A DNA stretch of 64,000 bases from NCBI RefSeq assembly GCF_017641085.1, contig NZ_JAEPPI010000003.1, positions 372,001-436,000 on the forward strand. Direction: 5' to 3'. Each line of letters starts with the position of its first letter. The stretch's first letter is position 1. Below, in pieces: positions 29,459 to 36,514 of this stretch. A program made the position numbers and the translations under genes. The stretch comes from Gracilimonas sp. (GTDB lineage: Bacteria; Bacteroidota; Rhodothermia; Balneolales; Balneolaceae). Below the pieces are notes generated by a model. It had not been told where the DNA came from. It made no database searches and was given only the letters and a program-made list of their open reading frames with translations.

Positions 29459-30401
29459 ATGAATTCGATTAACAGATATCAGTCACTTATTATAGCGCTG
29501 GCAGTCATTGCAGGTTTGCTGGCTGGGCAGGTGGAAACAGTGGCATCGGTTGCCGGATATGTGATCGTCCCTTTTTTAATGCTCATGCTATTTGGGCTAT
29601 TTCTTAACATCCCGATCAACGATCTGCTGAAGAGCTTTTCCAATTTAAAATTCTTTTCAGCAAACCTGGCCATCAATTTTCTCTGGACACCCTTTTTTGC
29701 CTGGGTACTGGGCTACCTGTTTCTTCAGGATCACCTAAGCCTTTGGATAGGTTTTGTCATGTTGATGATAACCCCCCTGTACGGATTGGTACCTGATTTT
29801 TACCGGTATTGCAAAAGGAAATACGACGCTTAGTGCCTCTGTGCTTCCTCTGAACCTGATTTTACAGGTGATTTTATTACCCGTGTTTTTACTACTCTTT
29901 TTTGGTGTATCCGGTTCGGTGAACCCGGCATTTCTGTTTGAAAGTATCGGCCTTGTGTTGATCGTACCCTTTGTTGCAGCGCAAGTCACAAAATATCTGC
30001 TCCACAGGTTCAAGCAATCCGTATTTCTTGAAACCAAGCTGCTGCCTTTTTTTTAGCTATCTCAGGTACTATTTCTTGGGTTAGCGATCATGGCTATGTT
30101 TGCATCTCAGGGTGATTACCTTCTTCAAAACATCGAAACTGTTCTTATTCTGCTGATCCCCCTAATGATATTTTTCGCCATAAATTTCCTGGTGAGTCGC
30201 TTTACAAGTTATCTGCTCCATTTTGATTATGAAGATTCAGTCAGCTTGAACCTTACCACACTTGCAAGAAATTCACCCATTGCATTAGCGATAGCTCTTA
30301 CGGCTTTCCCCAACAGTCCGCTGGTAGCTCTGGCTTTAATCATTGGGCCTCTTATTAAATTGCCGGTTTTAGCCTTGGTTTCACAAGTATTACTTAAATG
30401 A
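29459..30401 (+). pseudogene. Broken arsenite-permease-like gene (SBF/Acr3 superfamily)
   Basis: Three open pieces (29459-29833, 29841-30056, 30090-30401) together make one membrane protein of the bile-acid/arsenite transporter group. Reading across a run of six C at about 29771 with one C removed restores the family motif ITPCTDWYLIFTGIAKG, so that site is a one-base frameshift. The second and third pieces share a frame and are parted by a single TAG at 30054-30056 in LLPFF*LSQVLFLG. Two lesions in one gene mean it is probably dead, unless there is a sequencing error at the C-run. It follows the CDF gene, where an arsenic or metal exporter would fit. Confidence 0.85.
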
Positions 30402-30603: not shown

Positions 30604-33600
30604 ATGACCATTCAGGAATACGTCGATCAGTTAAACCTAAGATATAAATCAGGCATTTCGCGGGAGCACAGTTACCGGGGCGATTTACAAACATTGCTTA
30701 GTAATTTATTACCCGACCTACTCATAACCAATGAACCCTCACGAACAGATGTTGGAGCCCCCGATTATATCCTCACTAAAGGCAAAATTCCAGTTGGATA
30801 CATTGAAGCCAAAGACATTGGTGATCCAGATCTTGAGGGTAAGAAGAGGAATAAGGAACAGTTTGAACGCTACAAAACCGGTCTTCCTAACCTGATCTTC
30901 ACCGACTATATCGATTTCCATGTATATCGCGAAGGAGAATTTTTGACCTCGGTTTCTATTGCTGAAATTCAGGATGGAAAAATCGTTGGGAAGACGGAAA
31001 ACTACGGCAAGTTCGAAAATATCATCAAAGATTTTGGGACCCATGTGGGGCAAACCATCCGCAGTGCCAATAAGCTGTCGAAGATGATGGCCGGTAAAGC
31101 CCGAATCCTCGCTGATGTAATTGAGAAAGCCCTGAATGCCGATGAAGAAAAGCAAAAAAACAAAGTAAACGAGACGGCTAACAATACCCTACGGGAACAA
31201 CTGGCTGCATTTCAGAATGTATTGATCCACGATATCAAGGCGAAGGAGTTTGCGGACATCTATGCCCAGACTATTGCTTATGGTATGTTTGCAGCTCGTT
31301 TACACGATTCGACTTTGGATACCTTTGATCGCCATGAGGCAGCTGCGCTGATTCCGAAAACCAATCCCTTTCTTCGTAAGCTTTTCCAATACATAGCTGG
31401 TTATGATTTGGATGATCGTATTGTATGGGTGGTAGATGGATTGGCTGATATTTTCAGAGCGACGGATGTTGATGGCCTTCTCAAGAACTTTGGCAAAGCT
31501 ACACAACAGCAAGATCCCATCATTCATTTTTATGAAACGTTCTTGGCTGAGTATGATCCTAAGCTTCGAAAAAGTCGCGGAGTCTGGTACACACCTGAGC
31601 CGGTCGTAAACTTTATAGTTCGTGCCGTAGATGACATTTTGAAGGACGAGTTTGGTCTAAAAGAAGGACTGGCTGACACCACCAAGACCAAAGTGAAAGT
31701 AAAAGTACCCACGCACGATAAGCGCCACAAAGGCGGCATGGTAGAGGAAGAACGGGAAGTTCATAAAGTGCAGATTTTAGACCCGGCTGCTGGGACTGGA
31801 ACCTTCTTAGCCGAAGTGATCAAACAGATTCATTCCAAGTTTGAAGGACAGCAAGGTATCTGGGCTACCTATGTGGAAGAACACTTGATCCCACGCCTGA
31901 ATGGATTTGAGATCTTGATGGCCAGTTATGCAATGGCACACCTGAAACTGGACCTGCTGTTAAGGGAAACTGGTGTAGAGCCAAGTGGCAGTGAACGCTT
32001 TCGGGTGTATCTCACTAACTCCCTGGAAGAACATCACCCCGATACCGGAACCCTTTTTGCTGGTTGGTTGAGTGAAGAGGCCAATGAGGCCAACCACATT
32101 AAGCGCGATACCCCTGTGATGGTAGTATTGGGTAATCCGCCATACAGTGGCATTTCCTCAAATATGGGCAAATGGATATCTGAACTTATTGAAGATTATA
32201 AATATGTAGATGGTGAACATTTTGGGGAGCGAAAACATTGGCTTCACGATGATTATGTGAAGTTTATTCGATATGGTCAGCATTTTGTAGAGAAGAACGG
32301 CGAAGGTATTTTAGCATATGTAAACAATCATAGTTTTATCGATAATCCAACTTTTCGTGGTATGCGTTGGAATCTTATGAATACATTTGACGAGATTTAC
32401 ATACTGGATCTTCACGGTAGTTCAAAAAGAGGGTTAAAGGCGGAAAATGGTGAAAGGGACAAAAACGTATTTGATATTCAGCAAGGTGTTTCAATTAACA
32501 TATTTGTCAAAAAGTCTACTTCTAAAAAAGGTCTTGCTGATATCTATAAAGCAAATTTAATTGGCCCAAGAAATATGAAATATGATTTTCTTAACCAAAA
32601 TAGCCTTAAAGAAATTGATTTCAGTTTAATTAAAAATGAAAGTCCATACTACTTCTTTGTCGAGAAAGATTATTCTATTAAAGATGAATATTTAAGTGGG
32701 TTTAATGTAAATGAACTTTTCAATGAGTCAGTTACAGGAGTCCTAACAGCAAGAGATCATTTGGTTATTGATTTTGACAAAAATGATCTTATTGAAAGAA
32801 TTGAAGTATTTACAGATGACAGCTATTCTGATCAGCAAATAAGAGATAGATTTTTTGGAAATAGAACAGCAGGCAAGTATCCCGCAGGTGATACTCGTGG
32901 GTGGAAACTAAATGAAACAAGAGAGAAAATCAGAGGTAAAGAACACGATAAAATTACTTTGAATTACTCTTATCGCCCATTTGATACCAGAAAAATTTAT
33001 TATAGTCCTGAAATGGTTGATTGGGGACGTGAGAATTACATGCACCACTTAATTAGTGGAAAAAATGTGGCTCTTGACATTTGTAGACAGCTTATATCTG
33101 ATTCCTACCAACATATTTTTGTCACAAATAGATTAACAGATGATTCCTTTGTTTCTAATAAATCGAGAGAAAGAGGGTACATACTACCACTTTATTTATA
33201 TCCTGAAAAATCCACCCAAAAAACCCTAGATGGCAAACCAGAGCGAACACCCAATTTAGATAAGAAGATCGTTCAGGAAATAGCGAAGAAACTGGGGCTG
33301 AAGTTTATACCGGAGAAGGAAGAAACCGAAGGTACCTTTGCCCCTATTGATCTACTCGATTACATTTATGCGGTATTGCACTCCCCAAGCTACCGGGAGA
33401 AATACAAAGAGTTTCTTAAGATCGACTTTCCAAGAGTGCCTTACCCCGAAGATCCTGAGCTTTTTTGGGAACTCGTAGAACTTGGTGGAGAGCTACGCCA
33501 AATTCACTTGCTGGAGCATCCGGTTGTAGAAAAATTTATAACCACCTATCCCATTGCAGGGAGCAATGTGATTTCCAACCGGCTTACAAAAACCGATCCT

Positions 33601-33852
33601 GGTTTTATTCCGGAAGACGATGATGAAACCACCGGGAAAGTGTGGATAAACGAAGAACAGTATTTCGGCAAGGTTCCAAAAAAAGCCTGGGAATTCTACA
33701 TCGGCGGCTACCAACCCGCCGAAAAATGGCTCAAAGACCGACGAGATCGCGAACTCTCTATTGATGAAATTCGTCACTACCAAAAAATCATCGTGGCCCT
33801 TATGGAGACAGATCGATTGATGCAGGAGGTTGATGGGGTTTTGGACGTTTAA
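30604..33852 (+). CDS. Single-chain restriction-modification enzyme (type IIG/ISP-like)
   Basis: This 1,082-residue protein unites cutting and methylation. At the N-terminus lies a PD-(D/E)xK nuclease pattern (Asp54 in GAPDY, Glu68 and Lys70 in YIEAKD). The middle holds an N6-adenine methyltransferase with motif I ILDPAAGTGTF (Asp393) and motif IV GNPPYSG (Asn511). The C-terminal 300 residues include a likely target-recognition part and match the tail of type ISP enzymes, but no helicase motifs are present, unlike LlaBIII. Thus it is closer to type IIG in build. It defends the host against foreign DNA, or stabilises the island. It stands alone, without separate R or S genes. Confidence 0.85.
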   Translation: MTIQEYVDQLNLRYKSGISREHSYRGDLQTLLSNLLPDLLITNEPSRTDVGAPDYILTKGKIPVGYIEAKDIGDPDLEGKKRNKEQFERYKTGLPNLIFTDYIDFHVYREGEFLTSVSIAEIQDGKIVGKTENYGKFENIIKDFGTHVGQTIRSANKLSKMMAGKARILADVIEKALNADEEKQKNKVNETANNTLREQLAAFQNVLIHDIKAKEFADIYAQTIAYGMFAARLHDSTLDTFDRHEAAALIPKTNPFLRKLFQYIAGYDLDDRIVWVVDGLADIFRATDVDGLLKNFGKATQQQDPIIHFYETFLAEYDPKLRKSRGVWYTPEPVVNFIVRAVDDILKDEFGLKEGLADTTKTKVKVKVPTHDKRHKGGMVEEEREVHKVQILDPAAGTGTFLAEVIKQIHSKFEGQQGIWATYVEEHLIPRLNGFEILMASYAMAHLKLDLLLRETGVEPSGSERFRVYLTNSLEEHHPDTGTLFAGWLSEEANEANHIKRDTPVMVVLGNPPYSGISSNMGKWISELIEDYKYVDGEHFGERKHWLHDDYVKFIRYGQHFVEKNGEGILAYVNNHSFIDNPTFRGMRWNLMNTFDEIYILDLHGSSKRGLKAENGERDKNVFDIQQGVSINIFVKKSTSKKGLADIYKANLIGPRNMKYDFLNQNSLKEIDFSLIKNESPYYFFVEKDYSIKDEYLSGFNVNELFNESVTGVLTARDHLVIDFDKNDLIERIEVFTDDSYSDQQIRDRFFGNRTAGKYPAGDTRGWKLNETREKIRGKEHDKITLNYSYRPFDTRKIYYSPEMVDWGRENYMHHLISGKNVALDICRQLISDSYQHIFVTNRLTDDSFVSNKSRERGYILPLYLYPEKSTQKTLDGKPERTPNLDKKIVQEIAKKLGLKFIPEKEETEGTFAPIDLLDYIYAVLHSPSYREKYKEFLKIDFPRVPYPEDPELFWELVELGGELRQIHLLEHPVVEKFITTYPIAGSNVISNRLTKTDPGFIPEDDDETTGKVWINEEQYFGKVPKKAWEFYIGGYQPAEKWLKDRRDRELSIDEIRHYQKIIVALMETDRLMQEVDGVLDV

Positions 33853-34197
33853 AAGCTTTCCTGGAATTCTGCGGAGTTATATGAGTAAACTGGAATAAAA
33901 CAGCATTTAATGCAGCTCGGTATTTAAAAAAAGACTCCCCAAAGGCGAAAATAGCTCAATTTTTTTAAACGAATCTCAAAAAGGCTCAATTAAACAGTAA
34001 TTTATAAGTTTCAAATCACGAATTATTTCTAATATCCCTCACATCTTTCAAAGAAATTGACAGTAAGTATTAGTTAACGAAAGTTATTAGCCTAAATGTG
34101 GCCTAATTCAAGTGATTTGTTATAAGGAATCATTCAATAATGACTAGATACCGAAACCCGAATGTCTATTTCTTTCAAATAAATAAAGAAAAACCTA
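33853..34197. other. AT-rich gap after the restriction enzyme
   Basis: No credible gene is seen. The stretch is rich in A and T, and leads into the TGCTAA array at 34198. Two GCTCAAT words (near 33955 and 33985) are the only repeats noticed. Confidence 0.5.
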
Positions 34198-34430
34198 TGC
34201 TAAGCTGCTAAACACTGCTAAGTTTTTTAAAAGATGGTCCGGTTTATATAAAAGAAGGGATATTGGTTTTAGCAAAGATTTAAAGAAAATGCTAAGAACT
34301 GCTAAAGTGTGCTAGAGATTTTAGCAGCTTTTAGCACCTGTTAGCAGACCTTAGCAGTTAGTTATTTGTAAATAAACGATGATTTAATGGGTGTTTTGAT
34401 AGATTTTGGGTCAATCTTAGCAGTTTAGCA
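34198..34430. repeat. Dyad-symmetric array of TGCTAA/TTAGCA hexamers
   Basis: TGCTAA occurs at 34198, 34206, 34216, 34290 and 34300, with the variant TGCTAG at 34310. Its reverse complement TTAGCA occurs at 34321, 34331, 34341, 34351, 34417 and 34425, and once out of order at 34269. The inner copies are exactly ten bases apart, about one helical turn, and the outer pairs eight apart. Orientation flips near 34318, so the whole array is roughly mirror-symmetric. It lies just after the end of the recombinase gene. Possible roles are arm-type sites for the recombinase, an origin or partition site, or an operator. Confidence 0.85.
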
Positions 34431-34562
34431 GAAAAAGCCCTGGATTTGTTTAAACTTTTTTGAATACTGACTATCCGAATCAATTTTTTCTAAAAACACT
34501 GGGGTTAACAGCTGATTATCTACTGTTTATTTCCATAAAAAGTAGGTAATCATAGCTATGAG

Positions 34563-35831
34563 TTAAGCAGAATAACTCGTTTCACTGAAGAAATAGTTGA
34601 CTGTATCAATCTGAGTCGCTGGCTTCTTTTGCTCTTCCTTAGCTTCTTCAGCTTTTCGCTTTTCTATCTTATCCATTTTTCTTTTGAGGTTCTTTACCGA
34701 AAGGTGCGTGTACTTCTCGGTAACCTGCTGGCTGGAATGTCCGGCCATTAAGGAAGCCTCTGCAGTATGAAAACCATCCTCAATCCAGGTAGTGATGGCC
34801 TGATGTCTCATTCCGTGAAGGGTTCTGGTTGTAGGTACTCCGGCTAACTTCGCATAGCGCTTGAATTCGTAATACACCCGATCACCACGTACAGCTTTGC
34901 CTTTGGTTGGTCCTCCCTGATAGATAAATATGAAATCATCATTTTTTACAGAACCCCGAATTTTTAAATAATCTTCCAAATACCCACGAAGTTCTTTGCA
35001 AATTGGAATAAATCGCTCTTTTCTTCCTTTTGTCGGGCCCAGATAGATAAAGGTGAGTTCATCATCTACATATTCAAGATTTTGCCCTTTTAGTCCCGAG
35101 TATTGTAATTCAGGTGTATGACCAACTTCATGTTTACGCAATCCGGCATAGTAATAAAGAGCCAGAATAGGCTTAAACCAGTGCTGAACTTTTCTGGGGT
35201 CAAATTCCGGAAGTTTCTTTTTTCGCTCTAGTTCTTCGTCAAATTTTTCAAAAACCGACATGAGTTCTTCTTCAGAAATCATTTTTGGTCGAATACTGGA
35301 TCGGACTTTGGGTAATTCTTCCCTTATCTGATCGATCAGATCTTTAGTCACAATCTTCCGTTTTTTTAAATAATACCACCAGGTTTTTAGATGTTTGAAA
35401 TAAAATCCCATAGTGGCTGTTTTAATCTCTTTTCTGAGAATGACCCTTTCAAAATGCTTGAGGTGTATCCTGCGTGGATCAATTTTTTCAAGATCATTTA
35501 ATTCCACAAAATATTCTAAAACTCTTTTATATGCAGCAATAGTCGCAGGTGATAAATGTTTCTTGGATTCATAAAACATATCTATCGCCTCACGAACCGT
35601 TCGGCAGTTGTAGGGATTCTCTACTTCCTTTAAAGCTGCAATTGGGTCAAAGCTGGGATGGAAAGGATCAATTTTGCCGAGACTCTCCAGGCGCTCCAGC
35701 TTAGAGATCATCTTGAGTGCTACATCCTTATGCCGGGTTTTAAGCGATTTAGTAATGGTTTGAGAAACGCCTTTTACGGAACTATGATATCGGACATAGT
35801 AATAGCGGTTTCGTTTCTTGAGATATGCCAT
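34563..35831 (-). CDS. Tyrosine recombinase (phage-type integrase)
   Basis: This 422-residue protein, read from ATG at 35831 (an in-frame TTG at 35867 adds 12 codons), has an N-terminal arm-binding and SAM-like core-binding part (about residues 1-190) and the catalytic domain with the conserved residues: Arg in YAGLRKHEV, HGMRH with His and Arg, His in MAGHSS, and the Tyr nucleophile in EKYTHL. Such enzymes insert islands at tRNA genes. It lies between the hexamer array and a truncated tRNA-Met gene, which marks one edge of the island. The C-terminus is Lys/Glu-rich. Confidence 0.93.
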   Translation of the reverse strand: MAYLKKRNRYYYVRYHSSVKGVSQTITKSLKTRHKDVALKMISKLERLESLGKIDPFHPSFDPIAALKEVENPYNCRTVREAIDMFYESKKHLSPATIAAYKRVLEYFVELNDLEKIDPRRIHLKHFERVILRKEIKTATMGFYFKHLKTWWYYLKKRKIVTKDLIDQIREELPKVRSSIRPKMISEEELMSVFEKFDEELERKKKLPEFDPRKVQHWFKPILALYYYAGLRKHEVGHTPELQYSGLKGQNLEYVDDELTFIYLGPTKGRKERFIPICKELRGYLEDYLKIRGSVKNDDFIFIYQGGPTKGKAVRGDRVYYEFKRYAKLAGVPTTRTLHGMRHQAITTWIEDGFHTAEASLMAGHSSQQVTEKYTHLSVKNLKRKMDKIEKRKAEEAKEEQKKPATQIDTVNYFFSETSYSA

Positions 35832-36022
35832 GATAAGTCTCCAAAAATGTACCCCAAAACGAACCAAAATTGTGGGAATGGAAGGGAATAAAAGTGTTCC
35901 TTTTCGTTCCTTTTTGTTCGCTTACTAACTGTAAGAAAAGGGGCTTTTTTTTAACTTAAGAGGCACATTTTGGCGTTTTCAGTACTTTAAAAACACACAA
36001 GATAAGCTTCGTACTTTCCGCC

Positions 36023-36061
36023 TTATGAGTCGACTGCTCTAACCAACTGAGCTACGGGCCC
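36023..36061 (-). tRNA. 5' half of tRNA-Met(CAT), truncated at the anticodon loop
   Basis: On the minus strand the sequence reads GGGCCCG (acceptor), TA, GCTC/GAGC with a normal D-loop, GTCGA (anticodon stem) and the loop CTCATAA with anticodon CAT. After it, GGCGG replaces the expected TCGAC, and no T-arm follows. The tRNA thus ends at the loop, next to the recombinase. This fits an attachment-site remnant left by island insertion. A good TAnnTTTG promoter is kept upstream, so it was once a full gene. The matching 3' half or the restored gene must lie outside the window. Confidence 0.85.
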
Positions 36062-36154: not shown

Positions 36155-36330
36155 GTCATTGCGTGGAGGCAGGGATGTAGAATATTGGTTTGGGGGTTTA
36201 TAACGCCGGAGCCTGCCTGCCGGCAAAGGCAGGCAATCTCCCTGAACCGACATCCTAAGTATATCAAGGAGATCGCGTCGTCGCCAGGCAGGGGTGTCCT
36301 GCTTCACCACACTCTACTCCTCGCGATGAC
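36155..36330. repeat. Dispersed palindromic repeat, copy A
   Basis: Starts GTCATTGCG, holds GCAATCTCCCTGAACC and GGAGATCGCGTCGTCGC, and ends CTCCTCGCGATGAC. The two ends and the two inner blocks are inverted copies, so the whole can fold into a long hairpin. It is longer and more degenerate than copies B (36362) and C (61447). Confidence 0.75.
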
Positions 36331-36361
36331 GGGTTTTTTACTACTCATTAACGTCCCGTGC

Positions 36362-36514
36362 GTCATTGCGAGGAGCCCGTAAATCCGAATGCAGGGCTTG
36401 GATGCATACCGACGCGGCAATCTCCCTGAACCGACATCCTAAGTGGCTTAAGGAGATCGCGTCGTCGCCAGGCAAGGTTATCCTGAATCACCTAATACTA
36501 CTCCTCGCGATGAC
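36362..36514. repeat. Dispersed palindromic repeat, copy B
   Basis: Same family as copy A, 31 bases after it: GTCATTGCGAGGAGC at one end and CTCCTCGCGATGAC at the other, with the same inner CAATCTCCCTGAACCGACATCC block. Together with copy A it fills most of the gap between the tRNA and the aldo/keto reductase. From 36515 to 36909 nothing else was recognised. Confidence 0.8.

Follow-up and report, generated by a model that had tools for sequence, protein, structure and literature searches.

A phased TGCTAA array in a Gracilimonas metal-resistance island as an orphan copy of a probable replication origin linked to a primase-helicase

Among the origins of integrated elements described so far, those of PICIs lie directly 3' of the initiator gene, and two iteron sets flank an A+T-rich region there (PMC6092414). 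The oriV of SGI1 is located directly downstream of rep, and replication of a rep mutant is restored by rep expressed separately (PMC7433901). Action in trans has also been reported for RepA of PLE (PMC7145576). In the sequence record of P4, the alpha gene, whose product is a protein of 777 aa, is followed after 45 bp by the crr region, which consists of type 1 repeats in both orientations.

The array studied here, in a 64-kb stretch of Gracilimonas sp. DNA (hereafter the window), resembles three of these systems in part. It shares with crr/ori of P4 short repeats in both orientations, many of them 9-10 bp apart in P4 and spread over 300 bp, as well as the placement of the repeats after a primase-helicase initiator at related loci; the P4 repeat, however, is an 8-bp repeat of different sequence, and P4 has a second site (ori) elsewhere. 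The pri-rep-ori arrangement of PICI/SaPI elements is similar in that the origin lies just 3' of the initiator gene and combines iteron sets with an A+T-rich region, whereas our array has a central phased dyad core with outer clusters and its window copy lacks rep. SGI1 matches the window island as an integrated resistance island and has an iteron origin downstream of rep with a Rep that acts in trans, but its iterons are 17 bp long, its initiator is of the RepA_C type and it has kept its own rep. Because the array follows a primase-helicase gene in related loci, as the origins of PICIs, SGI1 and P4 follow their initiator genes, we read it as an origin. Judged by comparison, it is very probably the iteron-type replication origin of a primase-helicase initiator in integrated Balneolaceae elements, of which the window carries an orphan copy.

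Sites and layout of the array

Within 233 bp, the array holds 12 exact copies of TGCTAA and one TGCTAG, which together make 13 sites, five forward, one variant and seven reverse (Table 1). An earlier note on this DNA had given the five forward copies and the variant correctly and had listed six reverse copies, overlooking the one at 34269. The spacing of 10 bp that it described for the inner copies was confirmed at the same positions by our site listing, and the step across the dyad, from 34310 to 34321, is 11 bp. Its outer pairs, said to be 8 bp apart, exist as such on the right side, while the left cluster turned out to be a triplet; the dyad symmetry that it proposed holds approximately and not exactly. 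About 0.12 copies of TGCTAA are expected in 233 bp, and the Poisson probability of at least 12 copies is about 2e-20. Across the 64 kb, 33 copies were counted against 33.7 expected, so that TGCTAA shows no overall enrichment there. The spacers between the site clusters are richer in A+T than the window (70-72% versus 55%), which places a candidate unwinding region next to the sites.

Table 1. Features of the array and its surroundings, in window coordinates.
Feature	Position	Strand	Basis or remark
Forward TGCTAA sites	34198, 34206, 34216, 34290, 34300	+	exact
Variant site TGCTAG	34310	+	
Reverse sites (TTAGCA)	34269, 34321, 34331, 34341, 34351, 34417, 34425	-	exact
Whole iteron array, proposed Rep-binding replication origin	34198..34430	.	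sites, chance figure, homologous arrays after primase-helicase genes
Left outer cluster, forward-site triplet, steps 8 and 10 bp	34198..34221	+	identical in 6/6 aligned copies
Left spacer, 70% A+T, candidate unwinding region	34222..34268	.	composition
Lone reverse site	34269..34274	-	invariant in 6/6 copies
Core, 3 forward (third = TGCTAG) and 4 reverse sites, 10-bp phasing, dyad near 34318	34290..34356		
Right spacer, 72% A+T	34357..34416	.	composition
Right outer pair, reverse sites, 8 bp apart	34417..34430	-	
Whole homologous unit, between Type ISP gene and equivalent of helicase stop	33865..34462	.	
42-bp repeat AATTCTGTGGAGTTATATGAGTAAACCGGAATAAAACAGCAT, left edge of unit	33865..33906	+	
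Type ISP/IIG restriction-methyltransferase, cargo beside unit	30604..33852	+	
Tyrosine recombinase (PF00589), intact, 423 aa from ATG	34563..35834	-	
tRNA-Met(CAT) 5' half, right attachment junction of the island	36023..36061	-	

Homologous arrays and the primase-helicase gene

A second array is present in the same genome at C3:78047-78279, on the contig that also contains the window. It is 86% identical to the window array over 380 bp and begins at most 30 bp from the stop codon of a gene for a 775-aa protein (C3:78310-80634). At five of five loci with near-identical helicases (95-100%), the same array lies without indels at most 30 bp past the helicase stop. Besides the locus at C3:78 kb, these are one in G004, two in G008 and one in G009, with helicases of 95-98% identity. 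Records that carry the helicase are labelled Gracilimonas, Rhodohalobacter, Balneola, other Balneolaceae and, in one case, unplaced Bacteroidetes. Arrays also lie downstream of more distant helicase relatives (51-69% identical), at a distance of more than 1 kb in G049 and G044, and one was present at every helicase locus with enough downstream sequence, which supports the earlier suggestion that the array is an origin site of the island. Short repeated sites stand by the putative initiator gene in related loci; beside the window copy, no such gene is present.

The layout of the array is retained over considerable divergence of the helicase. Two relatives of 55-58% identity keep the layout with TGCTAA sites: their core has 10-bp phasing about a dyad, an outer pair with a step of 7-8 bp lies 65-66 bp from it, and the opposite side carries an outer cluster. 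Two relatives of 69% identity have a mixture of TGCTAA and TGCTTAA. The relative at 51% carries a CTGTAA-like hexamer and retains the 7-bp pair spacing, the 65-bp gap and the phased core; its 10 near-matches compare with 3.2 in shuffles (P 0.0005) for a motif picked after inspection. When 129 genomes of the order were scanned for three phased sites, nearly all arrays returned stood at helicase loci. Also returned were two arrays in G131 that run into contig ends, one of which has a helicase next to it, a decayed half-array without a helicase in G028, and one weak match in G093 with two exact sites and no helicase in the surrounding 8 kb. The half-array of G028 is located at L127 9374-9493 (G028 C4); a tRNA-Leu gene about 3.3 kb away from it has an integrase-like gene as its direct neighbour.

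The whole unit in the window is 79-82% identical to the region from helicase stop to cargo gene in five Rep-linked copies. We aligned the arrays of these five copies with that of the window, and the 233 bp aligned without indels across all six. Invariant positions made up 77 of 78 in the sites and 130 of 172 outside them (P 9e-7). Of the six copies, that in the window diverges most, and its private substitutions number 14 in the 172 non-site positions versus none in the 78 positions of the sites (P 0.006). Because all 14 private changes fall outside the 13 sites, selection has held the sites of the window in place until recently, or does so still.

By its sequence, the 775-aa protein is a primase-helicase. 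It has an invariant RGTGKS motif (Walker A-type), and the stretches FPFFLDD and VMTGNDKP are conserved; from its motifs and from general knowledge of that family, we take it to be a superfamily 3-type helicase. The protein matched PHROG 1139, a DNA primase (E 1.6e-9), phage primases in tblastn searches (E 3e-12) and, in hhalign, two phage primase-helicases (E 5e-19 and 6e-8). Neither Pfam nor NCBIfam gave a match above the cut-off, no relative was found in IMG/VR, and the sequences of solved structures contained nothing relevant. The mean pLDDT of the AlphaFold models was 57 for the helicase and 45 for its core domain, and a PDB fold search with the first of them gave nothing better than E 0.8; evidence from the fold was therefore left unused. 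The hhalign comparison with P4 alpha revealed no homology (probability 0.7, E 0.079, an unrelated stretch), which rules out a P4 alpha-type system by homology.

The orphan copy and its island

Neither a helicase gene nor a remnant of one was found in the 64-kb window, and a genome search showed that the gene at C3:78 kb is the only one of this type in the genome. The window array is therefore an orphan whose helicase gene is missing. Its neighbours are an integrase on one side and a Type ISP restriction enzyme on the other, in a predicted island of about 58.7 kb that would extend from a complete tRNA-Met(CAT) at C3:349289 to the 5' half of one at C3:408023. In addition to the Type ISP enzyme, the cargo of the island comprises metal-efflux and copper genes, as read from translations. 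From the PICI gene set (int, xis, pri-rep, ori), it carries int and the array only; the G054 locus has, in order, int, an HTH protein, the helicase and the array. The element at C3:78 kb carries AbiE and, as read from translations, type I restriction-like genes, and no tyrosine recombinase was found near it.

Several further observations concern the island and its surroundings. The 5' half of tRNA-Met(CAT) occurs three times, at C3:264863, 349289 and 408023, with two complete tRNA genes, the copy in the window (C3:408023, window 36023-36051) being without its 3' half; the three copies suggest that two islands lie in tandem at a single tRNA site. A second integrase, 60% identical and with an in-frame TGA, lies at C3:347850-349031, and a 41-residue integrase fragment is found near it (C3:350211-350333). 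The 42-bp repeat AATTCTGTGGAGTTATATGAGTAAACCGGAATAAAACAGCAT recurs at L045 7118 and 7631, at L061 5638 and 6258, and at L134 1686. It trails cargo genes in several related elements, where the cargo varies, and in this respect is like a cassette boundary. In G003, the place of the helicase beside a 230-bp unit beginning with AATTCTGTGGAGTTATATGAGTAAACCGGAATAAAACAGCAT is taken by a gene that matches PrimPol weakly. Three consecutive short ORFs at 29459-30401 of the window look like one broken transporter gene, and the first of them has a weak PF01758 match just under the cut-off. At 36200-36480, repeated intergenic text around GGAGATCGCGTCGTCGCCAGGCA is possibly REP-like.

Alternative readings and proposed function

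Only 132 bp separate the end of the integrase gene from the array, and short repeats are typical of arm sites, such as the 12-bp arm repeats in P4. The earlier note had considered arm-type sites of the adjacent tyrosine recombinase and had proposed to look beside homologous recombinases. However, none of 12 integrase homologues at 59-63% identity has the array in flanks of up to 1.5 kb. Moreover, arrays lie beside helicases whose nearest integrase is 28-29% identical to that of the window or was not found, and the attachment junction is about 1.6 kb away, across the int gene. We rejected arm sites on this distribution and consider them very improbable; the integrase is a neighbour of the array, not its partner. 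An even smaller chance is left for a structured RNA formed by TGCTAA/TTAGCA pairing: a moderate folding excess (z -1.7 and -2.3) was the signal in its favor, but it is weak, there is no Rfam match, and the helical-turn spacing is held while the spacers are free to differ, which fits sites in duplex DNA. An RNA element was thus likewise rejected. The operator of a lost gene, also raised earlier, is half right: the loss of a gene is borne out by the missing helicase, but at other loci the array stands 3' of the helicase gene, the position usual for an origin.

Two other readings stay closer to the helicase. The array, conserved and helicase-linked, could be a site that the helicase binds for copy-number control, incompatibility, partition or as a decoy, since iterons serve control roles as well. 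We regard this as unlikely, given that position and layout match known origins and that A+T-rich spacers separate the site clusters; no further candidate origin was noticed in the course of the comparisons. The other reading concerns the window copy and is compatible with the array being an origin: after loss of the replication module, this copy may persist as a neutral fossil without present function. The missing helicase argues for such a fossil, and the decayed orphan half-array of G028 is a precedent that these arrays can become one. On the other side stand the 13 of 13 intact sites and the confinement of private changes to non-site positions, although a recent loss of the helicase would still be compatible with them. 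We put this at somewhat less than an even chance.

Under the origin reading, the core with its 10-bp phasing and the outer clusters would be where the initiator assembles; the A+T-rich spacers would then be opened, and the excised circle would start to replicate from the array. For the orphan array in the window, the helicase at C3:78 kb may act in trans, or the array may be a recent relic. We tentatively suggest, as a doubtful extension, that the metal-resistance island is a non-autonomous passenger: equipped with an integrase of its own and an orphan origin, it would depend for its amplification, once excised, on the primase-helicase of the defence element at C3:78 kb in the same chromosome.

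Taken as proposed, the findings point to a probable pair of primase-helicase and origin in Balneolaceae, the initiator being one for which neither Pfam nor NCBIfam has a model that names it. The TGCTAA and CTGTAA-like hexamers on near-constant spacing constitute a natural test of how initiators recognize specific sites. The orphan copy raises the question of whether the origin of one island can be driven by the initiator of another in the same cell, and if the island is indeed a passenger, one element would borrow the initiator of another element.
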